Below are positions 1,865 through 44,065 of a stretch of DNA of 64,000 nt, in pieces. The translations under genes were made by a program, and so were the position numbers. The notes beneath the pieces were generated by a model. That model was not told where the DNA came from and did no database searches. It saw only the letters and a program-made list of their open reading frames with translations. Within the stretch, counting starts at the first letter, position 1; each line of letters begins with the position of its first letter. The DNA is taken from contig NZ_CP133465.1 of the NCBI RefSeq assembly GCF_031191185.1, positions 126,501-190,500 on the forward strand, given 5' to 3'. The DNA comes from Prevotella nigrescens. Lineage in GTDB: Bacteria; Bacteroidota; Bacteroidia; Bacteroidales; Bacteroidaceae.

Positions 1865-1895
1865 TTGATTAATCTTTTTTTTTGCCGTACCTTTG
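1865..1895 (+). promoter_or_regulatory. Promoter of the phosphoethanolamine transferase gene
   Basis: TACCTTTG at 1888-1895 matches the -7 consensus TAnnTTTG and a TTG at 1865-1867 lies 20 bp upstream as a -33 element. Transcription would start near 1902, giving a leader of only about 10 nt before the ATG at 1912. Confidence 0.6.
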
Positions 1896-1911
1896 CCACA
1901 AAGTATAGAAG

Positions 1912-3759
1912 ATGACTGTTTTAAAAGTTATAGCCAAAGTTTTAGAGGAAGTAAGTCTGCCTATTAGGAACAATTTTTGCTTTTTCTTCTTTATGTATCT
2001 CGTTGGTATTGTTGTTTCGTATGCGGAACTTCCTGCTAACAGAGAAGATGCATCGGTATATGGAAACCTTTGGTTAGAACTGTTTTTCGACCTCTACATC
2101 ATTTGTATTTTACTTTCGCTGATACCTAAACGTGTGCGTTGTTGGCTGACTGGAGCATTTTATGTAGTAGCCTACACCACAAGCATAGCCGATCTTTTTT
2201 GTTGGGTGAAGTTCCAATCGCCCTTAAATCCGTCAATGTTACTGTTGGCTGCAGAAACCGATAAGCGCGAAGCAAGTGAATTTCTAAGTAGCTACATCAA
2301 TTCAGAAGTGCTTACATCGAGTGTCGGATTGCTGTTGCTTATAGTTGTCGTGCATTGTTTGTTTGCAGTGTGGAATATTTATCGCAGACGGAAAAACATA
2401 AGACTTCCAATGTGGATAGGCATATTGAAAGACAAAAGTGCCTGTTTTATCGGGCTAATCGCACCCTTTTTGCTTGTAATATCGGCTGTTTCGTCTTTCC
2501 ACAATAAACGCGAGATGGTGCAGATGTTCTCGTTAAAGACGATAGGTGCAGTAGAACACGAACTTACTACACCTGATTGTGCTGTATTTTACACACCTGT
2601 CTATCGACTTGTATTCAGTCTTTATGCCAACCATTTGGCATCGCAACAAATAGACAGGCTGGTAGAAGCGAAAGACCATGCGACCGTTCAAGGTTGCACT
2701 TTCGATGCAAAGAACATAGTTTTGATTATCGGCGAAAGTCTCGGACCTCACCATTCGCAGCAGTACGGATACTTTATGAAGACTACGCCACACCAAGTTG
2801 CGCTGGAGAAATCGGGGCTTCTCATACCTTTCACCGACGTAGTAGCACCGTGGAACCTTACGAGTTTTGTTTTTAAAAACATCTTTTCAATGCACGTTGT
2901 TGGTCAGGAAGGCGAATGGTGCGACTATCCGCTCTTCCCACAATTGTTCCGCAAGGCAGGCTATCATGTGTCTTTCATCACCAATCAGTTCCTTCCGCAA
3001 GCCAAAGAAGCCGTCTACGACTTCAGTGGAGGCTTTTTCTTGAATAATAAAGAACTGTCGCAATCGATGTTCGATACTCGGAATACACGCTTGCATACCT
3101 ACGATGAAGGATTATTGACCGACTATGACAGCAGGCTGAAGGCAGAAAACAAGGAACACAACCTGATTATATTCCACCTGATAGGTTGCCATGTGTCGTA
3201 CAATCGGCGCTATCCAGCGGATAGAAAGCATTTTAAAGCATCAGATTATAAGCAGAAACGCCCGGAACTAACGCTGCAACGGCGTTATATGGTGGCACAC
3301 TACGACAATGCCGTGCTGTACAACGACTCGATAGTAGACCAGATAGTGAGACGTTTTGCCAATGAAGAAGCTGTGGTAATCTATATGCCCGACCACGGTG
3401 AAGAGTGTTTTGAAGGCAAACGAGACATTATATGCCGCAACCATTCTGCCAAGATTGATTACGACTTAGCACGCTACGAATTCCGAGTTCCATTCTGGAT
3501 ATACTGCTCGCCCAAATATATAAAGAGGCACCCAGAAGTGTTTGCACAAATAAAAGCAATAAGGCATAAACGTTTTATGACCGATGCTTTACCCCATCTG
3601 CTGCTCCATTTAGGTGGTATAAAGGCGAAAGACTATCACGGCGAATACGATATTCTGAGTCCACAATACAACGAGGAGCGTCCACGAATACTTAAAAACA
3701 CGACTGATTACGACGACCTGGTGGTTGCACATAAACGAAAAACTGCGATGAAACCGTAG
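1912..3759 (+). CDS. Sulfatase-fold phosphoethanolamine transferase (EptA/CptA-like)
   Basis: The 615-residue protein has several N-terminal membrane segments (about residues 20-40, 56-72, 80-98, 136-155, 176-195) and a periplasmic alkaline-phosphatase-fold domain from about residue 265. GES at 274-276 matches the first metal site of this family, T317 (NLTS) is placed like the phosphorylated threonine, and DHGE at 494-497 is the second metal site. Family members move phosphoethanolamine from phosphatidylethanolamine to lipid A, core sugars or other envelope glycans. It is first in a row of rightward envelope genes. The exact acceptor cannot be deduced; a related phosphoglycerol transferase activity is a less likely alternative. 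Confidence 0.88.
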   Translation: MTVLKVIAKVLEEVSLPIRNNFCFFFFMYLVGIVVSYAELPANREDASVYGNLWLELFFDLYIICILLSLIPKRVRCWLTGAFYVVAYTTSIADLFCWVKFQSPLNPSMLLLAAETDKREASEFLSSYINSEVLTSSVGLLLLIVVVHCLFAVWNIYRRRKNIRLPMWIGILKDKSACFIGLIAPFLLVISAVSSFHNKREMVQMFSLKTIGAVEHELTTPDCAVFYTPVYRLVFSLYANHLASQQIDRLVEAKDHATVQGCTFDAKNIVLIIGESLGPHHSQQYGYFMKTTPHQVALEKSGLLIPFTDVVAPWNLTSFVFKNIFSMHVVGQEGEWCDYPLFPQLFRKAGYHVSFITNQFLPQAKEAVYDFSGGFFLNNKELSQSMFDTRNTRLHTYDEGLLTDYDSRLKAENKEHNLIIFHLIGCHVSYNRRYPADRKHFKASDYKQKRPELTLQRRYMVAHYDNAVLYNDSIVDQIVRRFANEEAVVIYMPDHGEECFEGKRDIICRNHSAKIDYDLARYEFRVPFWIYCSPKYIKRHPEVFAQIKAIRHKRFMTDALPHLLLHLGGIKAKDYHGEYDILSPQYNEERPRILKNTTDYDDLVVAHKRKTAMKP

Positions 3760-3785
3760 ATTATTGACGTAAGAAAGTAATATAC

Positions 3786-4904
3786 ATGGATAGTAGAACG
3801 AACAAAACAATAAGTCGAAGAGCAGTGGGGAAGATGTTAAATCGCACAGAATGCAACATCTTGCGCGGCATTGCCATTGCCGGTATAGTGCTTCATAACT
3901 ACTGTCACTGGCTTCGCCCCATCGTAAAAGAGAACGAATACCAGTTCAATCAGCACAATGTGGACTGGTTCAACAACATTATGGCGCACAGTTTCACCGA
4001 GCTGACGTTTTTTCATCTGCTTTCTTTCTTTGGTCATTACGGCGTGCCCATCTTCCTTTTCTTGTCGGCTTACGGCTTGGTAATGAAATATGAATCGGGC
4101 AATGGCACCGCAAATCAGCCGAGCACATATCGCTTTTTACGCTTCCATTGGCTGAAACTCTTCCGTATGATGATAGTGGGCTTTGCCGTATTCGTATTGA
4201 TTGATGCAATAACTGCGGGGCAACACCATTACGAAGTGATGGACATTGTGGCACAAATGGGCTTGTTCAACAACCTTCTGCCCAATCCCGACGACATAAT
4301 ATGGCCTGGTCCTTATTGGTTCTTCGGCTTAATGCTTCAACTATACATCGTTTACCGCTTGTTCTTGTACAGAAAGGGCTGGACGTGGGTGGTGTCTTTC
4401 ATTGTTGTTTGTACCATCATCGAATTGCTGTGCGACCCTAATGGCGAACCATTAAACCGTTGGCGATATAATTTTATTGGTGGAATGCTGCCTTTTGGTT
4501 TGGGTTTGCTCTGCGCAAAGTATATGCGAGACGTGCCTTTGCGTATTTACGGAGCAACGTTTATAGGCTCGTTGCTCTTCATTCGGTCTGGTAGTAACTA
4601 CTTTTTTACATGGCTTTTCGTGCCAATGTTTGTGTGTTTAGCAAGTATCAGCTTTGTAAAACTGCTTTCGTATTGGAATCGGTGTTATCCCAAATATACT
4701 TTTGGGGTGGCAAAAACGTTTGAATGGTTAGGTGTTATATCAGCAGCACTGTTTATTTCGCACCCTATTACACGGAAAATAACTATTCCGATATCGCGTA
4801 GTGGAGATTATTGGACAGGACTGTTACTCTACATTATTACTTCTGTTTGTGTCGCTTGGCTGTTCAAAGAAATAATGAAACGTGTACCATCGCCAAAACT
4901 TTGA
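3786..4904 (+). CDS. Acyltransferase family 3 membrane protein
   Basis: This 372-residue protein begins its conserved part with LRGIAIAGIVLHN (residues 26-38), the typical first membrane helix of acyltransferase-3 enzymes with the catalytic-type histidine. About ten hydrophobic helices follow. The family transfers acetyl or other acyl groups to carbohydrates of LPS, O-antigen, capsule or peptidoglycan. The gene lies 26 bp after the phosphoethanolamine transferase and 1 bp before a second acyltransferase, suggesting an operon. A second possible start is the ATG at 3834 (MLNRTE), just ahead of the conserved region; the choice is not certain. Substrate unknown. Confidence 0.85.
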   Translation: MDSRTNKTISRRAVGKMLNRTECNILRGIAIAGIVLHNYCHWLRPIVKENEYQFNQHNVDWFNNIMAHSFTELTFFHLLSFFGHYGVPIFLFLSAYGLVMKYESGNGTANQPSTYRFLRFHWLKLFRMMIVGFAVFVLIDAITAGQHHYEVMDIVAQMGLFNNLLPNPDDIIWPGPYWFFGLMLQLYIVYRLFLYRKGWTWVVSFIVVCTIIELLCDPNGEPLNRWRYNFIGGMLPFGLGLLCAKYMRDVPLRIYGATFIGSLLFIRSGSNYFFTWLFVPMFVCLASISFVKLLSYWNRCYPKYTFGVAKTFEWLGVISAALFISHPITRKITIPISRSGDYWTGLLLYIITSVCVAWLFKEIMKRVPSPKL

Positions 4905-4905
4905 T

Positions 4906-5928
4906 ATGAGAAGAAAAGGATTAGAACTTGCAGATATTAGCCGGTTCCGTGGAGAACTGATGGGCTTGGCAATATTGTTTGTCATGCTTTTCCATGTAAG
5001 CGTACCTCGTACAGATATGTTCTTCGGACTTCATCGTATCGGAAATATAGGTGTCGATATGTTTTTCTTTCTCAGTGGTGTAGGACTTTGGCATTCCTGG
5101 ACGAAAAGTTCCGATACAATGCGGTTCTATCAAAAGCGACTTTTACGAATTTATCCTGCATGGCTAATTGTAGCATCGCTGTATTACATTCCTGATTTCT
5201 TTTCTATTCCATGGTTGCAACATCATGGGAACAGTACGGATATAATCGATTTAATCGGTGATATTACGATAAATTGGGACTTTTGGATACACGATGAATT
5301 AACGTTCTGGTATATCCCCGCAACTATGATGTTGTATTTGGTTACACCTGCTTACTTGACACTTATTGTGAAACACCCCATATACCGATGGATTCCTGCC
5401 GTCATGATGGTTTGGTGTGTGGTTGTTCAATATGTTTTGCCCATCTATAATGTTGTAGGACACCTTGAAATATTCTGGAGCCGTGTACCTATTTACTTTA
5501 TTGGACTTAATTTTGGTGCTGCCGTAAAAGAAAAACGAGTTCTGGAAAGTAGTTCCATTTGGCTTGTTCTCTTAGTTTTTTTAGGAACATTTGCTACTTG
5601 TGTTTATTTGGAACAAGTACGACATGGACGTTTTCCCTTGTTTTTGGAACGTCTGATATATATACCGCTCACAATAACAGGAGTATTCCTGCTTTGCAAA
5701 ACATTAGGTTGGTTGTCGAATAAACGTCTGAACAAGGTTCTTATATTTGTGGGAAGCATAAGTTTAGAAATCTATTTACTGCACAACCACTTTATACTTA
5801 TCTATATAGAACAACTTAGATGGCATTATTGGTCAAAGTTTTTTGCAACACTTGTTATAGTGCTGCCCTTTGCGTGGCTTCTACATAAAGGTGTAGAAAA
5901 ACTAACAATGATAATAAAAAAGAATTAA
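4906..5928 (+). CDS. Acyltransferase family 3 membrane protein
   Basis: A 340-residue integral membrane protein with the family signature: an R-F-R-G segment leading into the first helix with FHV (around residues 13-31) and NIGVDMFFFLSGVGL (about 47-61), where the glycine-rich turn after the second helix is typical. I chose ATG 4906 (MRRKG), which follows the previous stop by 1 bp; an upstream ATG at 4882 would add eight residues and overlap that gene. It is not a close duplicate of the preceding acyltransferase. It probably O-acylates the same envelope glycan at another position, which is inference from co-location. Confidence 0.85.
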   Translation: MRRKGLELADISRFRGELMGLAILFVMLFHVSVPRTDMFFGLHRIGNIGVDMFFFLSGVGLWHSWTKSSDTMRFYQKRLLRIYPAWLIVASLYYIPDFFSIPWLQHHGNSTDIIDLIGDITINWDFWIHDELTFWYIPATMMLYLVTPAYLTLIVKHPIYRWIPAVMMVWCVVVQYVLPIYNVVGHLEIFWSRVPIYFIGLNFGAAVKEKRVLESSSIWLVLLVFLGTFATCVYLEQVRHGRFPLFLERLIYIPLTITGVFLLCKTLGWLSNKRLNKVLIFVGSISLEIYLLHNHFILIYIEQLRWHYWSKFFATLVIVLPFAWLLHKGVEKLTMIIKKN

Positions 5929-5932
5929 GACT

Positions 5933-6811
5933 ATGAAGGAGATTATCAGATTAGTACGCCCACATCAGTGGATAAAGAACCTTGTAGTGTTGTTTCCTGT
6001 CTTCTTTGGTAGGGCTTTGGGTAATATAGAATCGCTTTACGAAGGTTGTATAACGATGATGGCATTTTCTTTTATAGCTTCTTCCATATACTGTTTGAAC
6101 GATATTGTTGATGTAAATGATGACCGTCGGCACCCGCAAAAGTGCAATCGTCCTTTAGCTTCTGGCAGAATAAGCATTACACAAGGTTATTGTATTATGG
6201 CAGTAATGGTGATTTTATCGATTGTTTCGCTTATTTTCTTGCCTGCCCACCGTATTGAAACGGGTGGCGTTATTGTTTTTTATTGGGCTTTAAACGTTGC
6301 TTATTGTTTATTTCTAAAGCAACATGCCATTATAGACGTTTGTGTTGTTGCGTTTGGTTTCGTATTACGTATTCTCGCAGGAGGTATCGCAACCGATATT
6401 CGATTGAGTAAATGGATAGTTTTAATGACTTTCCTTTTGATGCTATTTCTTTCGTTTGCCAAGCGTCGCGACGATGTTTTACGTATGAACGAAACTGGCG
6501 AAGCACCGCGGAAAAATACTATTCGTTATAATCTGACCTTCATAAATCAAGCCATTACCATAACTGCAAGTGTTACATTGGTATGTTACATTATGTACAC
6601 AGTAAGCCCTGAAACAATCGCAAATTTCCATACAGACAATCTCTATCTAACAAGTGTTTTCGTCCTTCTGGGTTTGTTACGGTATATTCAGCTTACAGTA
6701 GTAGACAAAAAGAGCGGTGATCCGACAAAAGTCCTTATTCACGACCGTTTCATTCAATTTATTGTATTGGGCTTTGGACTAACATTTCTTGTTATAATAT
6801 ATTTCTTATAG
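5933..6811 (+). CDS. UbiA-family phosphoribosyl-polyprenyl-phosphate synthase
   Basis: This 292-residue polytopic protein carries the aspartate-rich motif of UbiA prenyltransferases, NDIVDVNDD at residues 56-64 followed by RRHP and NRPLASG, and a second conserved patch FAKRRDD around 175. The opening LVRPHQWIKN and the K-R-R-D segment are those of the decaprenyl-phosphate phosphoribosyltransferase branch (Rv3806c type), which joins PRPP to polyprenyl phosphate, rather than of quinone or heme enzymes. The next gene, 1 bp away, carries the matching phosphatase and GtrA domains. It sits in the inner membrane. The substrate assignment is family-based; a quinone-type prenyltransferase is the alternative. 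Confidence 0.85.
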   Translation: MKEIIRLVRPHQWIKNLVVLFPVFFGRALGNIESLYEGCITMMAFSFIASSIYCLNDIVDVNDDRRHPQKCNRPLASGRISITQGYCIMAVMVILSIVSLIFLPAHRIETGGVIVFYWALNVAYCLFLKQHAIIDVCVVAFGFVLRILAGGIATDIRLSKWIVLMTFLLMLFLSFAKRRDDVLRMNETGEAPRKNTIRYNLTFINQAITITASVTLVCYIMYTVSPETIANFHTDNLYLTSVFVLLGLLRYIQLTVVDKKSGDPTKVLIHDRFIQFIVLGFGLTFLVIIYFL

Positions 6812-6812
6812 T

Positions 6813-7775
6813 ATGAAAGTATATGCCTTCGATTTTGATGGAACATTGACGAAAAAGGATACTTTTGTCGAATTCATCGAATATTCTAAAGGATATGGGA
6901 AAACTTTTTGGGGACTTATGTTGTTTTCTCCTATCCTTGTGTTAATGAAATTACGTCTATATCCTAACTGGAAAGCCAAACAGCGTATATTCTCATGGTT
7001 CTTTAAAGGAATGGAAATAGACGAATTTAATAAACTTTGCCAAAATTTCGCAACAGCAAAACAAGACATAATCCGCCAAAGTGGATTAGAAACGATTCGT
7101 AAAGCACTTAGCCAAGAAGATAGTGTGATTGTTATTACGGCAAGTATAGAAAACTGGGTGAGACCTTTCTTTCAAGAATTTGGAGATAAGATACGAATCG
7201 AAGGCACACAGATAGATGTCAGATTAGGCATTATAACAGGCAGCTTTTTAACAAAGAATTGCTATGGACAAGAGAAAATAAAGCGATTAAAAAGAGCATT
7301 TCCATATAGAAAAGCCTACAAACTAATTGCCTTTGGTGACAGTAAGGGCGATAGTTATTTACTAAAAGAGGCAGACGAAAGCTACTATAAGCCTTTCCGG
7401 ACGAAACGGAGGATAAACTTCGATGAAATCGTTCGTTTTTGTGTTGTAGGTGTTTTAGCTACCGCACTTCAATATGGAATATATCTTTTATTAATTAAAT
7501 GGATCGACCCACGAATTTCTAATACCATTGGCTATTTGTTAAGCTTTATGTTTAACTATATAGCATCGACGAAATTTACTTTTAAAGTTAAATCAACAGC
7601 AAAGCGTGGAGCAGGCTTTGCTGTCGCACATCTTGTCAATTATGGATTACAAACTATACTTTTAACTTTCTTTCTTTGGTTCGGATTGCCTAAGACAATT
7701 GCCATGATTCCTGTTTTCGGTATATGTGTTCCTATAAATTTCCTATTAGTGCGTTTATTCTTAAAACGACAATAG
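6813..7775 (+). CDS. HAD-IB phosphatase fused to a GtrA-type membrane domain
   Basis: Residues 1 to about 192 form a HAD subfamily IB phosphatase: DFDGT at 7-11 has the nucleophile and acid aspartates, TAS at 109-111 is motif II, and GDSKGD at 175-180 is motif IV. From about 203 to 320 there are four hydrophobic helices of the GtrA family (IVRFCVVGVLAT, FNYIASTKFTF), thought to help flip polyprenyl-phosphate sugars. The gene follows the UbiA synthase by 1 bp. I infer that the HAD part removes the 5-phosphate from polyprenyl-phosphoribose-5-phosphate and the GtrA part aids its translocation. Both domains appear complete and in one frame, so this is a true fusion. Confidence 0.87.
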   Translation: MKVYAFDFDGTLTKKDTFVEFIEYSKGYGKTFWGLMLFSPILVLMKLRLYPNWKAKQRIFSWFFKGMEIDEFNKLCQNFATAKQDIIRQSGLETIRKALSQEDSVIVITASIENWVRPFFQEFGDKIRIEGTQIDVRLGIITGSFLTKNCYGQEKIKRLKRAFPYRKAYKLIAFGDSKGDSYLLKEADESYYKPFRTKRRINFDEIVRFCVVGVLATALQYGIYLLLIKWIDPRISNTIGYLLSFMFNYIASTKFTFKVKSTAKRGAGFAVAHLVNYGLQTILLTFFLWFGLPKTIAMIPVFGICVPINFLLVRLFLKRQ

Positions 7776-7809
7776 GATAAGTTTATGGGTAAGACTTACC
7801 TACGAACAC

Positions 7810-7840
7810 TTGTGAGGTATATTATAAATGTGTATCTTTG
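7810..7840 (+). promoter_or_regulatory. Promoter of the DUF6080 gene pair
   Basis: TTG at 7810-7812 and TATCTTTG at 7833-7840 are separated by 20 bp, matching the Bacteroidota -33/-7 pattern. The inferred transcription start is near 7847, just before the ATG at 7862. It could transcribe the DUF6080 pair separately from the genes upstream. Confidence 0.65.
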
Positions 7841-7861
7841 CAACTCTTAATCAAGAAGTAA

Positions 7862-9211
7862 ATGTCTGTATCAGGTGTTTTTGCAATAAAAAAAGAAGAG
7901 CGTTTATTAGCATTTTCTATGCTTTTAGTCTTCTTGGCATTTAATGCACTGCTCATAAGTAGCCATTTTGGAGTCTATACAATGGGAGCGCATGGAGGTT
8001 TTTGGTCGCTGTTCACCAAAAATTTCCGTATGTCTGGTTACGATAATTGGTCATGGATTACCATTTCTTGTATGCGAGTCCACTTTGAAACCATACGGCA
8101 TCCACTATTTTTAACACTGCTTTATCCTTTGTATTGGCTCGACCATTGGCTTATAAATGCTGTGGGGATTAATTTTGCAGTATTCTTTATGGCTGTTATC
8201 GTTGTTTTTTCAGCATTCTATAGTGTTATTTTCACTTACCGGATTTTGTGTGAGGTATTAGATTTGAAGCGAAAAGACGCAACTTTACTCACGCTTTTCT
8301 TTTTCTCTTTCGGTCATATTCTTGTTCCAGCAATGGTCCCCGACCATTTTATAATATCCTTAATGTTGCTTACACTTACACTTTATATTGCAGGAATGCG
8401 GCAAAAGCAAGGAAAGTTAATAAAAGCGTGGGAATCTTTCCTTCTAATGTTCTTTACGGCAGGAATAGCTGCTTCGAATGCAGGAAAAACAATCTTGGCT
8501 GGTATTTTTACAAACGGTAAAAAGCTCTTTAGTTTTAAATATCTTGTAGTGGGTATTCTGCTCCCTTTAGCTTTACTGTTTGGAATACAACAAATACAAT
8601 ACTATCAAGTAGAAGTTCCGCAAGAAGAAGTAACCAATAAAATTGTAAAAAACAATAAAAAGAAACAACCTGGAAAATTTGAGGCTCATACAAAAGAACG
8701 CAATGCATGGTTGCAAGCACATACGGGACGCGCAGCGAGCAGTGAAGGGATAGGAAAGCTGATGGATATTTCTACTTCTCGAACTCAAACATTAATCGAA
8801 AATTTCTTTGGCGAGCCCATTCAGCTACACCAAAAATATCTTCTAAAAGATGTATCTTGGGATCGCCCCATATTTGTAAAGTATAGTTGGATAGCCAATT
8901 ATGTCGTTGAAGCATTAATAGTATTGCTTTTCATTATCGGAATTTTAGCAGGTTGGCGTTACAAGTTTATGAAAATGCTTCTGTTATGGTTTGCCTGCGA
9001 CTTTACGTTGCACATTATTATGGGCTTTGCCATCAATGAAGTATATATTATGACAGCAGGCTGGGCTTTCATAATTCCTATTTCCATCGGATATTTGCTG
9101 CGTATTCTTTCTCATCAGTCTCGACTTATTTTGCGCATTATATTGCTGGCATTAACAAGTTGGTTATGGATTTATAACGGCGGACAAATCATTTGTTATC
9201 TCATTCAATGA
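7862..9211 (+). CDS. DUF6080-type polytopic membrane protein, possible GT-C transferase
   Basis: A 449-residue membrane protein with roughly ten hydrophobic helices, a hydrophilic loop rich in lysine near residues 245-285, and a conserved stretch after it (DISTSRTQT, ENFFGEPIQLHQ). It shares with its downstream neighbour RHPLF in the first loop, PDHFI near 160, NYVVEA, and NEVYIMTAGW near the C-terminus. I recognise it as the DUF6080 group of Bacteroidales, whose function I do not know to be established. Size, topology and place behind a polyprenyl-phosphate sugar cassette fit a GT-C glycosyltransferase; that is inference. It has its own promoter. Confidence 0.75.
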   Translation: MSVSGVFAIKKEERLLAFSMLLVFLAFNALLISSHFGVYTMGAHGGFWSLFTKNFRMSGYDNWSWITISCMRVHFETIRHPLFLTLLYPLYWLDHWLINAVGINFAVFFMAVIVVFSAFYSVIFTYRILCEVLDLKRKDATLLTLFFFSFGHILVPAMVPDHFIISLMLLTLTLYIAGMRQKQGKLIKAWESFLLMFFTAGIAASNAGKTILAGIFTNGKKLFSFKYLVVGILLPLALLFGIQQIQYYQVEVPQEEVTNKIVKNNKKKQPGKFEAHTKERNAWLQAHTGRAASSEGIGKLMDISTSRTQTLIENFFGEPIQLHQKYLLKDVSWDRPIFVKYSWIANYVVEALIVLLFIIGILAGWRYKFMKMLLLWFACDFTLHIIMGFAINEVYIMTAGWAFIIPISIGYLLRILSHQSRLILRIILLALTSWLWIYNGGQIICYLIQ

Positions 9212-10644
9212 AAGCTATTGTAGGTTTCCTTAGTATTAAGAGAGAAGAACACCTACCAGTGGGCTTATTCTTTGTGTGGCAACTATTGTTACAAACTCTT
9301 GCCATTACAAAATATGTACCATTATTTACGAATCCATCGAGCAATTACTATAAATTGTTTGTAGACAACTACCATCTCTCTGGTTTCGATCCTTTAACCT
9401 ATTTGGTAGTTTCCGATTGGTCGTTAGCATTCGATGTAAACCGACACCCACTGTTGGCACTCTTTTATTATCCTTTTGCGTTGTTAAACGAATTGCTCAT
9501 TTATATTACGGGAACAAACTTTGCCATTTATATAGTTGCATGTGTTTTGCTATTCTTCTCTACCTGTGGTTTTGTTCTTATGTTGCGTATTTTGCGCCAA
9601 ATCATCGGTATATCTTCTTTCGATTCAGCGCTTCTTGCATTCTTTCTCTATTCTTTTGCTCACGTTTTACTTTCAAGTATAGCTCCCGACCATTTCATTT
9701 TGTCGATGTTTATGCTTTTGCTCACGTTGTATATTGCAGGAAAATGTATGAAAGAACAGAAAGAAATGGGCATTTGGCAAACTGTTCTATTGTTTTTGCT
9801 TACTGCAGGCATATCTCTGAATAATGGCTTAAAAATATTTCTTGCCAATCTTTTTACACGAGGCAAACGATTTTTCACTATAAAGAACCTTCTTTTAGCA
9901 ATTATTCTACCCTCTGCAGCCATCTTTACAATTGGAGAATGGCAACACGAACAGTTTATTGCCGATAAAGTAACAGCATTAAAAATTAAAAAGCGTAATG
10001 CCATTAAGGCAGAACGCAAGGCTATGTTTGCTGCATTTAAAGATACTACCCACATTAAAGATAGTGTAAAACAAGAGAAAGTTTTCCAAAATATGTGGAG
10101 AGAACATCGCAGAAATGTGTTGAGAGCAGAAGATAAACAACCACAAAAAGCACATTCGGGCAAACCAGTAAGTAAGCTACGTTTTCTGAATTGGACAGAT
10201 ATTTCTACTTCTCGTACAGAAACGATTGTGGAAAATTTATTTGGCGAATCCATACAGCTACATCAAACGCATAAATTAGAAGATATAATGAAGACACGTC
10301 CTGTTATTGTTTCCTATAATTGGGCAGTCAATTATATTGTAGAAGCTATAATTTTTCTCCTTTTCATCGTAGGAATTTGGTGTGGACAGCATTCTAAATT
10401 TTTGTGGCTCTTCCTTTCTTTTGCTGCATTAGATATGGTATTGCACATTGGTTTAGGCTTTGGCATAAACGAAGTTTATATAATGGCTGCTCATTGGATT
10501 TATGTTATACCTCTGTCTATTGCTTTTCTTGTGCACAAAAGCTATGGAAAAAGACTGTTCGGAGTGCGTACTTTGCTTGTCCTGCTTACACTGTATCTCG
10601 TTGTCTACAACGGTTCATTGCTCATCAAGTATTTGTATTTTTAA
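9208..10644 (+). CDS. DUF6080-type polytopic membrane protein, paralogue of the preceding gene
   Basis: A 478-residue membrane protein paralogous to the preceding one along its length: RHPLL, PDHFI, DISTSRTET, ENLFGESIQLHQ, NYIVEA and NEVYIMAAHW occur in the same order, and the central lysine-rich loop is longer here. I chose the ATG at 9208, which overlaps the upstream stop as ATGA and indicates translational coupling; an ATG at 9193 would add five residues. The pair probably arose by tandem duplication and may act as two transferases in series or as a heteromer. Function is not established. Confidence 0.75.
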   Translation: MKAIVGFLSIKREEHLPVGLFFVWQLLLQTLAITKYVPLFTNPSSNYYKLFVDNYHLSGFDPLTYLVVSDWSLAFDVNRHPLLALFYYPFALLNELLIYITGTNFAIYIVACVLLFFSTCGFVLMLRILRQIIGISSFDSALLAFFLYSFAHVLLSSIAPDHFILSMFMLLLTLYIAGKCMKEQKEMGIWQTVLLFLLTAGISLNNGLKIFLANLFTRGKRFFTIKNLLLAIILPSAAIFTIGEWQHEQFIADKVTALKIKKRNAIKAERKAMFAAFKDTTHIKDSVKQEKVFQNMWREHRRNVLRAEDKQPQKAHSGKPVSKLRFLNWTDISTSRTETIVENLFGESIQLHQTHKLEDIMKTRPVIVSYNWAVNYIVEAIIFLLFIVGIWCGQHSKFLWLFLSFAALDMVLHIGLGFGINEVYIMAAHWIYVIPLSIAFLVHKSYGKRLFGVRTLLVLLTLYLVVYNGSLLIKYLYF

Positions 10645-10656
10645 ATATTAGTAGTT

Positions 10657-11616
10657 ATGAAAGCAAGTGTCTCTATCGTTTTATGTACTTACAATGGGGC
10701 AAAATACCTCAGCGAACAGTTAGATTCTATTCTCGCACAGACATATCCGCCGCACGAAATAATAATACAAGACGATAATTCTACCGATGAAACCGTTGAT
10801 ATTATTCACGAGTATGCTCGTAAATATAGTTTTATGAAGTTTTTCAAAAACAATTCTGAGCATGGTGTAAATGGTAATTTTATTTCTGCTATGCAACGAG
10901 CCACAGGCGATTATATAGCAATTTCCGACCAAGATGATATTTGGGAAACAGACAAAATAGAAAATCAGATGAATAGTATTGGTAAAAACTTACTTTGTTC
11001 TGGTTTTTCGCGTCCTTTTTCCACCGATGGCTCGTTTGCCTATTTCGACCATCGAAAACGTAATGTAAGCGTAGTCCGAATGTGTTTCTTGGGGCTCCCC
11101 GGACATACATTGTTGTTCCGCCGTGAACTTGTAAATATGTTGCCGACATTGGAACATTCAATTTACAAATATTCTATGTACGATGCTGCACTTTCAATAA
11201 CGGCAGCTGCACATAAAAGCATCGTATTCATCGACAAAATACTGGTTAATTTCCGCCGACATTCTGCAGCGACTACCTATAACGATTATAAAAAAAGTTT
11301 GCCATCGTGGCAAAATGCTTTATACATGTTGCGGTGGGGAATAAAGCATTACAAGGAAACAAGAAAGCGCATACGTCCTATTTTTGCAGCAAAACTGTTG
11401 CTTTTAAATTATGTAAATGCTAATAACGACGAGGCAAATGCTGCAAAAACGATACTCGAATTAGAATTGCAAAACGGCATTTTACCTTTTTTAAAATTGC
11501 AATATTGCTGTATGAAGAATTATAAGCACCTATTTCATACCGAAGGAAAAGGATTTTTACGATTCATTCGTGCAGCTCTTTATCCCATTATGCAGCTACA
11601 AATGTATGCACAATAG
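10657..11616 (+). CDS. Family 2 glycosyltransferase
   Basis: A 319-residue cytoplasmic GT-A fold enzyme. VLCTYNG at the N-terminus, QDDNSTDET at residues 38-46 and SDQDDIW at 90-96 provide the nucleotide-sugar and metal-binding residues of GT2 enzymes, with a C-terminal region resembling rhamnosyl- or galactofuranosyltransferase-like members. It lies 12 bp after the second DUF6080 gene and is last in the decoration cluster. It probably adds a sugar to the lipid-linked or LPS glycan made by this locus. Donor and acceptor are unknown. Confidence 0.9.
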   Translation: MKASVSIVLCTYNGAKYLSEQLDSILAQTYPPHEIIIQDDNSTDETVDIIHEYARKYSFMKFFKNNSEHGVNGNFISAMQRATGDYIAISDQDDIWETDKIENQMNSIGKNLLCSGFSRPFSTDGSFAYFDHRKRNVSVVRMCFLGLPGHTLLFRRELVNMLPTLEHSIYKYSMYDAALSITAAAHKSIVFIDKILVNFRRHSAATTYNDYKKSLPSWQNALYMLRWGIKHYKETRKRIRPIFAAKLLLLNYVNANNDEANAAKTILELELQNGILPFLKLQYCCMKNYKHLFHTEGKGFLRFIRAALYPIMQLQMYAQ

Positions 11617-12335: not shown

Positions 12336-13104
12336 CCTTAATTCCGCAGTATTATTCCTTGTGAGGTACTTTTATATATTGAAGTGACATTTTTGGGATT
12401 TATCCATTGATATGGGGATTTTCTGGGGTTCTTGGTTCTTGCATAATCATGAAATCCCCCACCCAAACCAATGGGGAAGTATGATAACCACAAAGAAATA
12501 CTGTTTATTCAATGAAGACCTCAGAGTAGTATGCTTTATTTGTATATAGGTTCAGAACGTTCTGCCTTCCAGTGCGCACCCATTTTGCTGGCACGCTGAC
12601 AAAATGCAGGATAAAGGCTTTCAGCCTGCTTGTCTTTTTCAATGGCTTGACCTTATCGCTGATATGACGGACGAGATAGAGATAGAAGTTCTTCAGCATG
12701 GCGGTAACCATCATGAAAACCATGTTCTCAGCCATAAAGGAAAAGGGCAGATGCGACCATCCGAAGTCATTGTTCTGTATGTCGAAGTTCTTTTCGCTTG
12801 CTCCACGCTCATTATAAATACTTCCATAACAGAATGCTTTGCCGCTACTTCCACGTTTACCCAATACAGATTCGGTAAGTTTTTCAAAGCCCAACTTTGA
12901 GAAAACGTCCATAATGTGATAAAATCCACCGAAAGAAGTGATATTCACGTTTTTAATTGCTACCTTTGCCATGTCAGTTTTTTGCTTACTTGTTATGTTT
13001 GCAGCACTAAGATAGGTGAAATTTCAGACATATTCAAGTGTTTTGAAAATTTTGTTTCTCAGGCACTTGGGATTCTCACAAGAATTTATGCTGCAGAATT
13101 AAGG
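12336..13104 (-). mobile_element. IS1380-family element, internally deleted relic A
   Basis: The relic is bounded by imperfect inverted repeats: CCTTAATTCCGCAGTAT at the right end (12336-12352) and its counterpart ending AGAATTAAGG at 13104. It keeps an in-frame joined transposase of 155 residues (12505-12972). Full-length members of the family are about twice this size. No target-site duplication is evident. Confidence 0.75.
12505..12972 (-). pseudogene. Internally deleted IS1380-type transposase
   Basis: The 155-residue reading frame joins the transposase N-terminus (MAKVAIKNVNITSFGG, to about residue 52) directly to the C-terminal part (DFGWSHLPFSFMAENMVF, VPAKWVRTGRQNVLNLYT). IS1380 transposases are usually more than 400 residues, so the catalytic DDE centre is lost although the frame stays open. 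It cannot be an active transposase. The same N-terminus occurs in relic C at 14266-14574. Confidence 0.75.
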
Positions 13105-14263: not shown

Positions 14264-14706
14264 CCTCAATTCCGCAGCATTATTCCTTGTGAGGTACTTT
14301 TATATATTGAAGTGACATTTTTGGGATTCATCCATTGATATGGGAATTTTCTGGGGTTCTTGGTTCTTGCATAAGCATAAAATCCCCAAACCAATGGGGA
14401 AGTATGATAACCACAAAAAATACTTCCATAACAGAATGCTTTGCCGCTACTTCCACATTTACCCAATACAGATTCAGTAAGTTTTTCAAAGCCCAACTTT
14501 GAGAAAACGTCCATAATGTGATAAATTCCACCGAAAGAAGTGATCTTCTCGTTTTTAATTGCTACCTTTGCCATGTCAGTTTTTTGCTTACTTGTTATGT
14601 TTGCAGCACCAAGATAGGTGAAATTTCTGACATATCCAAGTGTTTTGAGAACTTTGTTTCTCAGACACTTGGAGTTCTCACAAGAATTTATACTGCGGAA
14701 TTAAGG
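14264..14706 (-). mobile_element. IS1380-family element, deleted relic C
   Basis: A 443-bp derivative of the same element as relic A. The right end reads CCTCAATTCCGCAGCAT (one mismatch to relic A) and the left end finishes GCGGAATTAAGG at 14706. Only about 50 transposase N-terminal codons remain before the sequence jumps to the right terminal region. Confidence 0.75.
14266..14574 (-). pseudogene. Truncated IS1380-type transposase
   Basis: The first about 52 residues (MAKVAIKNEKITSFGGIYHI) match relic A, then the frame runs out of the transposase into the terminal non-coding part of the element and ends at the inverted repeat. The deletion point differs from relic A, so these are independent deletion derivatives. 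Confidence 0.7.
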
Positions 14707-37630: not shown

Positions 37631-38413
37631 TTACTTTTTTACGAACAGCCTGACCACAAACCAAGCGTGTTTTGCAAGGGTCGGGAGTATGCCATAGTGC
37701 CTACACATAACTTGAAACCGTTCGTACAGCGAAGTCCGATGATGCTTTGTAGTCTGTCCTTCTTCTAAGTAATTGGCAATTACCGCATGTACATTTCTTA
37801 ATAATAACCCTTCTTTTTCGCCTTCACGCATTATCTTTATGCACCAATCAATGTCGGCTGAATAACGGAAACGTGTATCGAAAGGAATCTTTTTGGCAAT
37901 GTCCAATCGGGCATAAAAGGCTTGATGGCATACCAACATACCATCGCGGAACGAACGCCAAGACAGCTTTTCGGGCGGTTGCAGCCTGCGATGATATAAG
38001 AAGTTCCCTTTTTCGTCTACAATATCGGTATCTCCATATACGACGGCAGGACGCCTTTCGCCATCGCCAACCTCGGCTGCCAATGCTACTTTTTCTATTG
38101 TATCGGCAGCGGGAAAGCGGTCGCCAGCATTCAAAAACACCACATAATCGCCATTTGCACGTGCCAATCCTTTATTCATAGCATCATAAAGCCCTTTGTC
38201 CGGCTCGCTTTTTATACGAACAACATGCCCATTTTCCGCACTATCCGAAAGCTCTTTATAAGCGTCTGCAATTGCCAAAGTGTTATCGGTTGATGCTCCG
38301 TCCACGATAATATGTTCTATTGTGGGAAAGCTTTGTCGTAATACGCTATCGAGTGTAGGCTTTAATACATCGGCAGCATTATAGGTTATGGTTACTACAG
38401 AGAATGTTATCAT
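37631..38413 (-). CDS. Family 2 glycosyltransferase
   Basis: A 260-residue GT-A enzyme of the WcaA type. VVTITYN at the N-terminus, VDGASTDNT at 37-45 and FLNAGDRF around 95 give the nucleotide-sugar and metal-binding sites; SADIDWCIKIM corresponds to the acceptor-side catalytic acid region. It overlaps the upstream GT4 gene by 4 bp (ATGA), so the two are translationally coupled and likely act on the same polysaccharide. Sugar specificity unknown. Confidence 0.92.
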   Translation of the reverse strand: MITFSVVTITYNAADVLKPTLDSVLRQSFPTIEHIIVDGASTDNTLAIADAYKELSDSAENGHVVRIKSEPDKGLYDAMNKGLARANGDYVVFLNAGDRFPAADTIEKVALAAEVGDGERRPAVVYGDTDIVDEKGNFLYHRRLQPPEKLSWRSFRDGMLVCHQAFYARLDIAKKIPFDTRFRYSADIDWCIKIMREGEKEGLLLRNVHAVIANYLEEGQTTKHHRTSLYERFQVMCRHYGILPTLAKHAWFVVRLFVKK

Positions 38414-39684
38414 ATTTGTTTGTTGTTTGAATTGGCAAGCGCTTTCTTGTAAATATCGATGTATTGTGCTGCTACACGCGCTTGTGAATAGTTTTCCTTG
38501 ACTTTTTTAATGGCGTCTGCAGAAAGTTTATCGTAGTCGGCAATGTTCAGCACCCAATAGATACCATTAGCCAAATCGGCAGAATCTTTCTGTTCAACGA
38601 TATATCCATTGCGTTTATGATCTATCATTTCAGGTATTCCTCCCACTTCAAAGCCTACGCAAGGGATACCGCAAGCCATTGCTTCCATGATGGTATTGGG
38701 GAGATTATCTGATAAAGATGGAGTTACAAACACGTCAACAGCATTGTAGACATCTACTATTTGTTGTGTATCAGCCACGTATCCTAATGGAAACATCGGC
38801 AACTCGAAGTCGTTACACAATTCTTCGGCATGCCCACCGAGTACAATCACGGCTGTATTTGTTAATGTTTCAGGGTGTTGTCTCACCATTTTCTGGCATG
38901 CATCAACTAAATAACCCATACCTTTATTATGGTTTGTAACGCGTTGCGATGCGAAAAGTATCAGACGTTTATCGGCAGGCAAGCCTAATTTTTTACGTGC
39001 TTCGTTTTTATTAGTCCTGCAAAAGATATTGGAATCTATTGGGTTCGGAATACTTTCAATGATATTCTTGCCTATTAATGCACTCTTTTTTGCTTCATTT
39101 TGCAGCCATTTACTGCATGCTATATATATAATATGTGAATGTCCTTTTATTTGTTCCTTACGTCGCCACGTCCTTTTTGCAAGGTCACAACCGAAAGGAA
39201 AGGGCAGCAAACGGCATTTTTCGCAGTGCGTTTCAAACTTCCTGCAGTCCAATGTTATATGGCAAATGGCGGTGGCAGGCCATATATCGTGCATTGTCCA
39301 CACAAGGGGCTTGCCTGCCTTCAGTACTTTTTCTATATTGTTGAGCGATATAAAACCTTGATTTATCCATGCTAAATGAATGACATCGGCATTCTTAAAT
39401 TCTGGCAATTGCGTTATATCAGTTCCTGTATTGGCTATATCAATCGCAAAAAGATTTCGCTTTGAAAATCGCAAATGACAAAATATGCACCATCTTTCCC
39501 ACAATTTGTTCCATCGTGTGCGCCAGTTGTTCTTTATAGCAAATACCGTTTTATCGTCACTCAACTTGTCCCGAACAAGCATAGATGCATCTATTCCACT
39601 TTTATTCAGTGCATCTTTTAAACGATTTGCAGCTACTGCAGCTCCGCCCGTCCGTTCACTTGTATTTACAATTAATACTCTCAT
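38410..39684 (-). CDS. Family 4 glycosyltransferase
   Basis: A 424-residue GT-B enzyme. The N-terminal domain begins MRVLIVNTSERTGGAAVAAN; the C-terminal Rossmann domain has LFASQRVTNHNKGMGYLVDA and the donor-binding segment FVTPSLSDNLPNTIMEAMAC with the EX7E-like pattern leading to GIPCVGFEVGGIPEMI. A cysteine-rich insertion (about residues 150-175, CHITLDCRKFETHCEKC) resembles similar inserts in Bacteroidota enzymes. A TATCTTTG promoter lies 19 bp upstream of the start. It is likely involved in surface polysaccharide synthesis. Confidence 0.93.
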   Translation of the reverse strand: MRVLIVNTSERTGGAAVAANRLKDALNKSGIDASMLVRDKLSDDKTVFAIKNNWRTRWNKLWERWCIFCHLRFSKRNLFAIDIANTGTDITQLPEFKNADVIHLAWINQGFISLNNIEKVLKAGKPLVWTMHDIWPATAICHITLDCRKFETHCEKCRLLPFPFGCDLAKRTWRRKEQIKGHSHIIYIACSKWLQNEAKKSALIGKNIIESIPNPIDSNIFCRTNKNEARKKLGLPADKRLILFASQRVTNHNKGMGYLVDACQKMVRQHPETLTNTAVIVLGGHAEELCNDFELPMFPLGYVADTQQIVDVYNAVDVFVTPSLSDNLPNTIMEAMACGIPCVGFEVGGIPEMIDHKRNGYIVEQKDSADLANGIYWVLNIADYDKLSADAIKKVKENYSQARVAAQYIDIYKKALANSNNKQI

Positions 39685-42551: not shown

Positions 42552-42616
42552 AAACTATCGGAAGATGCTGACAAGCTATACAAACAAGCACACTGTTGAA
42601 CGGAAATTATAATAAG

Positions 42617-44065
42617 ATGGCAGAACAAACTTTAAAAGAAAAAACGGCAAAAGGACTCTTCTGGGGAGCATTGAACAACGGTACAATGCAGATTTTGAAT
42701 GTGCTTATTGGTATTTTGTTGGCTCGTTTGCTTTCCAATGCCGATTACGGTCTAATGGGAATGCTTGCTGTTTTTACTGCTGTTGCAGGAGCCTTACAAG
42801 AAAGTGGCTTTACTTCTGCTATCGCAAATATAGAAAATCCTACGGACAACGACTATAATTCGGTGTTTTGGTTCAGCACTATTGTAAGTTGGTGCTCGTA
42901 TCTGGTGCTTTTCTTTTGCGCTCCGCTAATTGCTGACTTCTTCCACCATGCAGAACTCGTAAATCTTTCTCGTTTCCTATTTGTTTCTTTGCTTTTCTCT
43001 GCCATTGGTACTGCACCAACGGCATATCTGTTCAAGAACATTATGGTAAAGGAAACAACTATCTTGCGTGTATCGTCTTTGGTAGTTTCGGGCATTGTCG
43101 GCATCGTGTTGGCACTGCAGAATTATGGTTACTGGAGCTTGGCTTGGCAGCAGGTTCTATATATAACGCTTACAAGTTTAGGGCGTTTTTTTATAATCCC
43201 TTGGCGACCTTCCTTGAAAATAAGTTTTGCTCCAATACGCAGAATGTTCTCTTTCAGCTACAAAATCTTAATTACTACTGTTGTAAACATAGTGAGCCAA
43301 AACTTACTTACATTCATTTTCGGACGCCTTTACACGGCAAATGCTGTTGGAAACTTCTCGCAAGCATTCAAATGGGACACGATGGCAAGTACAATGGTAT
43401 CGGGAACTACATCGCAAGTGGCACAACCTGTATTGGCAGAAGTGAAGTCGGAAACAGAACGACAAGCAGTCGTTTTCAGGAAGATGCTACGTTTCACCGC
43501 CTTCTTAGCCTTCCCAGCCATGTTTGGTTTGAGCATGGTTGCACACGAATTTATAATTGTCCTCATATCCAACAAGTGGGCAGATAGTATTCCGCTGCTT
43601 CGCATACTTTGCATCAGTGGCGCTTTTCTGCCTTTCTACACATTATATCAGAATTTGATGATAAGCCGTGGCAAATCTGATGTATATTTATGGGTAACAA
43701 CTTCGCTTATTGCAGTTCAGTTATTGCTTGTTTTGTTGTGCCATAGCAAGGGAATGGTGTTCATGGTGAGCGCTTATACAGTAGCCACAGTACTCTGGCT
43801 GTTTGTTTGGCAATATTTTGCATATCGCGAAATCTCCCTTCGCTTATACGATGTTTTGTGTGACATTACACCTTATATGGTTATTTCTGCAGCAATTATA
43901 ATCGCAGTTTATTTTGCTACAAGCGGTATTCAAAATCTTATAATTCTCTTATTGACACGAATAATCTTGGCAGTTGCAGCCTACTTCATTGTCATGAAAC
44001 TATTAGGTTCTAAAATGCTCGACGAATGTATTGCCTATTTGTTTCATAAAAGGATAAAACCGTGA
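42617..44065 (+). CDS. Lipid-linked oligosaccharide flippase (Wzx/WzxC-like, MOP superfamily)
   Basis: A 482-residue membrane protein with about 12-14 helices. The N-terminus KTAKGLFWGALNNGTMQILN and the segment GLMGMLAVFTAVAGALQESGFTSAI are typical of WzxC-like polysaccharide biosynthesis proteins. These flip undecaprenyl-linked sugars across the inner membrane. I take ATG 42617 (MAEQTLKEK) as the start; an ATG at 42596 would add seven residues. It follows nadD by 65 bp and is not clearly tied to a glycan cluster nearby. Confidence 0.88.
   Translation: MAEQTLKEKTAKGLFWGALNNGTMQILNVLIGILLARLLSNADYGLMGMLAVFTAVAGALQESGFTSAIANIENPTDNDYNSVFWFSTIVSWCSYLVLFFCAPLIADFFHHAELVNLSRFLFVSLLFSAIGTAPTAYLFKNIMVKETTILRVSSLVVSGIVGIVLALQNYGYWSLAWQQVLYITLTSLGRFFIIPWRPSLKISFAPIRRMFSFSYKILITTVVNIVSQNLLTFIFGRLYTANAVGNFSQAFKWDTMASTMVSGTTSQVAQPVLAEVKSETERQAVVFRKMLRFTAFLAFPAMFGLSMVAHEFIIVLISNKWADSIPLLRILCISGAFLPFYTLYQNLMISRGKSDVYLWVTTSLIAVQLLLVLLCHSKGMVFMVSAYTVATVLWLFVWQYFAYREISLRLYDVLCDITPYMVISAAIIIAVYFATSGIQNLIILLLTRIILAVAAYFIVMKLLGSKMLDECIAYLFHKRIKP

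Follow-up and report, generated by a model that had tools for sequence, protein, structure and literature searches.

A predicted extracytoplasmic ribofuranosylation cassette with DUF6080 membrane proteins in Prevotella nigrescens

The stretch of Prevotella nigrescens DNA analyzed here (64 kb, referred to throughout as the window) contains eight same-strand genes at 1912–11616 that code, in order, for a phosphoethanolamine transferase, two acyltransferase-3 membrane proteins, a UbiA-type protein, a HAD phosphatase fused to GtrA, two DUF6080 membrane proteins (copies A and B), and a GT2 glycosyltransferase. We consider it likely that this cassette is an extracytoplasmic ribofuranosylation system, in which lipid-carried ribose derived from phosphoribosyl pyrophosphate (PRPP) is moved across the inner membrane and attached to a surface glycan. 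The original prediction for this locus, a polyprenyl-linked ribose or arabinose donor feeding DUF6080 transferases, is supported in its overall reading, and none of the contrary findings it had named was seen when they were looked for by sequence.

In the proposed pathway the UbiA-type protein would act as donor synthase, making a lipid-linked ribose donor from PRPP. The HAD domain would take off the 5-phosphate to give polyprenyl-phosphate-ribofuranose and the GtrA domain would carry this donor to the periplasmic face, dephosphorylation and flipping being physically coupled because HAD and GtrA share one polypeptide. DUF6080 A and B would then each add ribofuranose at a particular position in an envelope glycan, a step for which the fold is supported and the reaction predicted, with an invariant aspartate in the loop following the first transmembrane helix (TM1) as the candidate base. 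The sugar would stay D-ribofuranose (D-Ribf), no DprE1-type epimerase having been found. A broader proposal, which we regard as evenly balanced, is that DUF6080 is a new, Prevotella-lineage family of GT-C ribofuranosyltransferases that together with the phosphatase-flippase fusion equips a Prevotella envelope glycan with ribofuranosyl side chains or with short ribofuranans, the several DUF6080 copies in a cluster setting strain-specific ribose linkages. With such a system, pentofuranose modification that starts from PRPP would reach a lineage abundant in the mouth and gut, and the predicted surface sugar D-Ribf could influence recognition by the immune system, adsorption of phages, and the diversity of lipopolysaccharide (LPS) or O-glycans.

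The donor synthase and the phosphatase-flippase fusion

The UbiA-type protein is of the decaprenyl-phosphate phosphoribosyltransferase type, as had been proposed, and we refer to it and its relatives as PPPRS (polyprenyl-phosphate 5-phosphoribosyltransferase). It passes the cut-off of one NCBIfam model for decaprenyl-phosphate phosphoribosyltransferases (NF008978, 211.8 bits against 207), misses that of a second (NF008977, 219.1 against 234) and is also under the cut-off of NF008976. It matches the mycobacterial phosphoribosyltransferase structure PDB 8j8j over residues 4–284 (E 5.2e-41). Twelve residues for PRPP, Mg or pyrophosphate are named in the Mycobacterium tuberculosis enzyme Rv3806c in section 10 of PMC10994848; ten are identical in the window protein (R22, K28, Y70, N73, D77, K87, R90, Y138, K143 and K208, in M. 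tuberculosis numbering), and the remaining two are Q135, replaced by N, and Y157, replaced by F, a change that occurs in some mycobacteria (PMC10994848). At 11 of the 12 positions all 17 PPPRS from the examined loci have the same letters as the window protein, and position 208 is lysine in 13 of the 17.

As a control, the MenA protein of the same genome retains five of the 12 positions and has lost K28, Y70, K87, K143 and K208, among which K28 and Y70 are 5-phosphate residues of the PRPP site (PMC10994848). This separate MenA scores 140.7 with TIGR00751 (cut-off 102.15), and since it and the window protein are the two UbiA-family matches in the genome, little room is left for a quinone alternative; the UbiA and CyoE models score far below their cut-offs on the window protein. 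A role as a quinone enzyme, one of the contrary findings mentioned above, was rejected on the strength of the PRPP-site residues and the separate MenA.

The gene directly 3' of the PPPRS gene encodes, in a single open reading frame (ORF), the HAD phosphatase fused to GtrA that had been described, with the HAD-IB domain at about residues 1–200 and the GtrA domain at about residues 208–316. The HAD-IB domain has the catalytic-Asp motif, DFDGT being found close to the N-terminal end, and GDSKGD can also be read in the sequence. The GtrA match is the only one in the genome. Both domains are present in 105 of the best 120 of 3882 homologues, and the rest are mostly HAD alone; a PDB sequence search with the fusion protein gave no usable relative. 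Kelly et al. describe direct evidence for the flipping step as lacking, and the phosphatase-flippase fusion offers a simple experimental handle on it.

The DUF6080 proteins and their association with the donor genes

Structure prediction and fold search of both DUF6080 copies bear out their proposed likeness to GT-C enzymes. For each copy, 46 of the 50 rows shown of the structure-match list are GT-C enzymes and four are a glycosylphosphatidylinositol-transamidase subunit, with entries assigned by family name, which we take to identify them; the matched chain in the three translocon complexes among the 46 is presumably oligosaccharyltransferase. The models also match AftA, AftB, AftD and Emb chains. 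As modelled, the proteins have the features of GT-C enzymes, a transmembrane bundle with a periplasmic loop after TM1 and an acidic residue in the loop. This residue, D61, sits between helix 12–40 and helix 63–70, and is invariant in 57/57 and 48/48 rows of two alignments that share many rows. The copy B model ends with a helix at 447–477 of 478 residues, and therefore has no room for a C-terminal carbohydrate-binding module (CBM). A DUF6080 profile (A1) gave seven PDB matches with E-values of 0.047 to 2.7, none of them a GT-C enzyme, no GT-C Pfam family was in reach in a family-level comparison, and a literature search for DUF6080 found no paper.

In a tree of 69 rows (quick method, no bootstrap), copy A belongs to a group of 11 rows and copy B to a separate group of seven, both with SH-aLRT of 100. 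The two copies thus appear to be paralogues that diverged long ago, and they might act on different acceptor sites. We note that three tandem DUF6080 genes are present at locus L100 (G012:C66, 5985–10177), about 2 kb before a GT2 gene (44% to the window GT2); the 17-kb stretch contains no match to PPPRS.

DUF6080 occurs in 43 of 60 same-genus genomes and in none of 40 genomes from other families of the order, and a family-wide draw of 301 genomes contained it in 20, comprising 19 of the same genus and one with a divergent copy in another genus. The pathway would provide a testable function for this membrane family, whose function was previously unassigned. PPPRS was likewise counted in 43 of the 60 genomes, after three genomes with partial matches of 21–34 bits (G064, G091 and G092) were dropped and one (G015), whose 28-bit match is a fragment that adjoins DUF6080 at the end of a contig, was kept. 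Both genes are present in 38 genomes, DUF6080 only in five (completeness 50, 83, 86, 86 and 90%), PPPRS only in five, and neither in 12; PPPRS is thus found in 38/43 genomes with DUF6080 versus 5/17 without it (Fisher p 1.6e-5, kinship uncorrected). The two genes are no more than 5 kb apart in at least 25 of the 38 genomes, a lower bound because 46 DUF6080 places rather than all rows were used.

The co-occurrence that had been expected of DUF6080 and the UbiA and GtrA genes extends to their neighbourhoods, and HAD or GtrA lies within at most 1.5 kb of DUF6080 in 22 of 29 relative loci. UbiA and HAD/GtrA are upstream of DUF6080 in nine of 13 named loci, and the phosphoethanolamine transferase and two acyltransferase genes are upstream too in eight of the 13, with a gap of about 5 kb between the second acyltransferase and UbiA in L005. 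Three types of gene fusion tie UbiA, HAD, GtrA and DUF6080 together: HAD-GtrA, GtrA-DUF6080, and HAD-(divergent DUF6080). The second type is represented by P0052 (609 aa; one of 120 proteins listed) and L101 (619 aa), the latter in the order phosphoethanolamine transferase, acyltransferase, acyltransferase, UbiA, HAD, [GtrA-DUF6080], DUF6080. The third is found in another genus directly 3' of UbiA (L099), where the long open frame begins too early and the real start is probably just ahead of the HAD motif.

A sample of 15 stretches was also fetched around PPPRS genes without adjoining DUF6080. In seven, PPPRS is adjoined by a large membrane protein, Pfam-less in six cases and a PMT_2 GT-C in one (L083). 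This would agree with, but does not prove, an exchange of the final transferase in certain genomes. Four of the Pfam-less proteins (L078, L079, L081 and L089) are of one kind, and L080 and L087 are of other kinds. The remaining eight stretches include one with DprE1/DprE2 (L085), four with the phosphoethanolamine transferase/acyltransferase genes (L086, L088, L091 and L092), and three with none of these neighbours beside PPPRS (L082, at a contig end, L084 and L090). The proteins of the first kind, all from this genus, constitute a second membrane family of about 490–560 aa (L078, 8538–10025, leftwards; L079, 6342–8036; L081, 5958–7427; L089, 6447–7979), and their alignment (A3, four sequences) has an invariant W-x-D-E-V-M after the first transmembrane helix as well as Y-P-P-L-Y and R-P-D motifs. 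They are possible further GT-C transferases; profile comparison of A1 with A3 gave a probability of 0.5%, so homology to DUF6080 is not shown, and a PDB sequence search with A3 gave no usable relative.

The transferred sugar and alternative explanations

Ribofuranose is the sugar expected from the gene content. Another Bacteroidales family has a PPPRS-DprE1-DprE2-HAD cassette at locus L085 (G086:C61, 8941–12494), a candidate arabinofuranose donor pathway outside the actinobacteria; its DprE1 scores 426.7 bits with NF053785, under the cut-off of 500, yet this is its best model. PF04030 (ALO) as a DprE1 marker was found in none of 100 genomes and also misses the DprE1 of G086, which matches PF01565 only, and was therefore dropped in favor of a protein search with the L085 DprE1. 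This query gave matches in 18 of the 100 genomes, full-length only in its own genome G086 (the control) and otherwise partial, inside frames of 691–1006 aa, and there were none in the 60 same-genus genomes, including that of the window. As no DprE1 was found in these 60 genomes, the ribose half of the proposed "ribose or arabinose" is favored, and the arabinose half is not.

Several observations weigh against the ribofuranosylation system. Foldseek alone is weak for DUF6080, with a best E-value of 2e-4 and a TM-score of 0.47, and D61 is a candidate catalytic base assigned by its position and invariance only. DUF6080 is set apart from GT136, and the system from ORF13 (both of the Citrobacter system discussed below), by description rather than by sequence comparison. 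Outside the window, the genome has 14 match rows for the epimerase family PF01370, two of which share a reading frame. Literature searches, in records available in part, found no Prevotella LPS or glycan with Ribf, the Ribf of one hit belonging to Streptococcus, and gave no lead for Bacteroidota O-glycans. DUF6080 and PPPRS are on different contigs in 11 of the 38 genomes and 12 and 128 kb apart in two others, and the DUF6080 clusters L010 and L012 have no PPPRS within 10 kb upstream.

Because of these last two clusters, some DUF6080 copies may use another donor or a distant source. More generally, DUF6080 could be a GT-C enzyme with a different donor (a polyprenyl-diphosphate-linked sugar or a polyprenyl-phosphate-hexose) or an inactive partner, the pentose donor serving another transferase, and the GT-C fold is indeed common to enzymes with many donors. 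We think this unlikely given the GtrA-DUF6080 and HAD-(DUF6080-like) fusions, the 38/43 co-occurrence, the location of the only GtrA match in the DUF6080 operon, and a genome without a match to PMT_2, the one GT-C family searched for. Moreover, L012 appears to be contig G012:C66, both having a length of 32,390 bases, and the G012 genome holds PPPRS on another contig.

Arabinofuranosylation, with the donor epimerized to polyprenyl-phosphate-arabinofuranose as in mycobacteria ahead of DUF6080, is a poor prospect, although the pathway entry is common with mycobacteria, the L085 cassette occurs within the order, and the DUF6080 models match Aft and Emb chains. The L085 DprE1 is absent by search from all 60 genus genomes with a full-length control (DprE2 alone was not searched), and no PF01370 match is present in the window. 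Conversion of the donor to xylofuranose or another pentofuranose by a short-chain dehydrogenase/reductase epimerase encoded elsewhere, like ORF13 of Citrobacter, is poorer still: the PF01370 matches could supply such an enzyme and ORF12/ORF13 are a precedent (PMC11127046, section 11), yet the Citrobacter epimerase gene is in its cluster and the window has no such match (no epimerase annotation was made for clusters in other genomes). That the UbiA-type protein acts on a quinone or heme precursor in an accidental glycan-gene neighbourhood, as its superfamily membership might suggest, is extremely improbable in view of the retained PRPP site, the separate MenA, the low UbiA and CyoE scores, and an arrangement with HAD, GtrA and DUF6080 genes that recurs across loci.

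Cassette organization and comparison with known systems

The five genes named in the original prediction are intact ORFs located where it placed them, and Pfam agrees with every name; the acyl- and phosphoethanolamine transferases it reported upstream are also present (Table 1). The phosphoethanolamine transferase matches NCBIfam models of CptA, an enzyme of the LPS core, with E-values of 6e-58 and 9e-53, both under the cut-offs. As guesses, LPS might be the acceptor, and the phosphoethanolamine transferase and acyltransferases might decorate the same glycan.

Table 1. Predicted genes and promoter-like boxes of the cassette
Feature	Position	Strand	Evidence or remark
TAnnTTTGC box	1888..1896	+	15 nt upstream of first gene, ATG 1912
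Phosphoethanolamine-transferase-type sulfatase-fold membrane enzyme, CptA-like	1912..3759	+	Pfam PF00884
Acyltransferase-3 membrane protein 1	3786..4904	+	PF01757 E 3e-20
Acyltransferase-3 membrane protein 2	4882..5928	+	PF01757 E 7e-29
UbiA-type polyprenyl-phosphate 5-phosphoribosyltransferase (PPPRS/DPPRS type)	5933..6811	+	PF01040 E 1.5e-24
HAD-IB phosphatase fused to GtrA-type flippase	6813..7775	+	PF12710 8e-28; PF04138 4e-20
TAnnTTTGC box, TATCTTTGC, ahead of first DUF6080 gene	7833..7841	+	box scan
DUF6080 copy A, predicted GT-C glycosyltransferase	7862..9211	+	Pfam DUF6080 E 1e-172
DUF6080 copy B, predicted GT-C glycosyltransferase	9208..10644	+	Pfam DUF6080 E 5e-188
GT2 glycosyltransferase	10657..11616	+	PF00535 E 2e-29

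The genes are tightly spaced, as had been noted, with 1 nt between UbiA and HAD-GtrA, a 4-nt ATGA overlap between DUF6080 A and B, and 12 nt between DUF6080 B and GT2. Upstream of DUF6080 A is an 86-nt gap. This gap holds a TAnnTTTGC box, and the DUF6080 genes may therefore be driven by their own promoter inside the operon. We take the box to be the Bacteroidota-type -7 promoter element; it occurs 43 times in the window against 20.3 expected from dinucleotide shuffles, and none of 100 shuffles reaches 43. A scan of the window for consensus promoters and terminators gave no signal (31 promoter-like sites versus 39.7 expected, and 8 terminator-like versus 7.8). Copy B likely starts at ATG 9208, with TTG 9193 as an upstream alternative (frame 9193–10644). 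The nearest named matches are P. intermedia for copy A (89%) and P. pallens for copy B (93%), and a GT2 gene like that of the window adjoins DUF6080 in some relative loci only.

Just downstream of the operon are two short leftwards-transcribed ORFs (12505–12972 and 14266–14574) with a near-identical N-terminal stretch (MAKVAIKN...SFGG.YHIMDVFSKLGFEKL...). Each has a TACCTTTGC and a TATGTTTGC box close to its start, at a distance of 33 nt from one another. The first has a weak partial match to DDE_Tnp_1_4 (E 1.5e-4, under cut-off) and the second has none; both are probably decayed insertion sequences. Another glycan region is located 26 kb away, with a GT4 glycosyltransferase and a Polysacc_synt_3 (Wzx-type) gene (37631–39684, leftwards, and 42596–44065, rightwards), and includes a GT2-like ORF (37631–38413) assigned by eye.

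The analogy drawn with the mycobacterial decaprenyl-phosphate-arabinose pathway (Rv3806c, Rv3807c, DprE1/E2, Rv3789, Emb/Aft) stands for the first enzyme, which is homologous with a conserved PRPP site, and the two are also alike in a small multi-transmembrane flippase and GT-C acceptor transferases of similar fold. It does not extend to the phosphatase, which is of the HAD family here, whereas Rv3807c is unrelated to HAD phosphatases (PMC11127046, section 7), and the closest precedent is instead in Citrobacter. The cassette further differs in that no DprE1 was found, and sequence comparison detected no match between DUF6080 and the arabinosyltransferases in PDB. A literature search on decaprenylphosphoryl-phosphoribose synthase with Bacteroidetes, GtrA or arabinofuranose found only a mycobacterial review.

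DUF6080 has no detected sequence similarity to ArnT of lipid A modification, for which a different donor is expected. The GtrABC systems of O-antigen glucosylation in Shigella and Salmonella, as outlined in PMC11127046, share a GtrA-type flippase, a GT-C transferase and a polyprenyl-phosphate-sugar donor with the cassette, but make the donor with a GtrB-type synthase rather than with a UbiA-type PPPRS and PRPP.

The scheme as a whole corresponds to the published three-component pentofuranose concept of PMC11127046, described for Citrobacter youngae O1/O2 with ORF15 (PPPRS-PRP), ORF14 (MATE) and ORF12 (GT136). Among 18 papers on the subject since 2024, judged by titles and abstract beginnings, this is the only description of such a system outside mycobacteria, and its main text has no mention of Bacteroid or Prevotella (the supplement was outside the search). 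Both systems have a UbiA-type PPPRS using PRPP, an HAD-family phosphatase step, a flippase and a periplasmic GT-C, with no DprE1 and with ribose as the default sugar. They differ in that the phosphatase is fused to the flippase here and to the synthase in Citrobacter (PMC11127046, section 7), in that the flippase is GtrA rather than MATE, and in that the DUF6080 models lack an additional domain at the C terminus, whereas GT136 is accompanied by a CBM. GT136 and O-antigen-ligase-type GT-C folds are absent from the DUF6080 structure lists, which is no evidence against them. What the Prevotella cassette adds to this concept is the GtrA-phosphatase fusion as a donor processing unit, DUF6080 as a candidate for the terminal transferase, and Prevotella as the setting.

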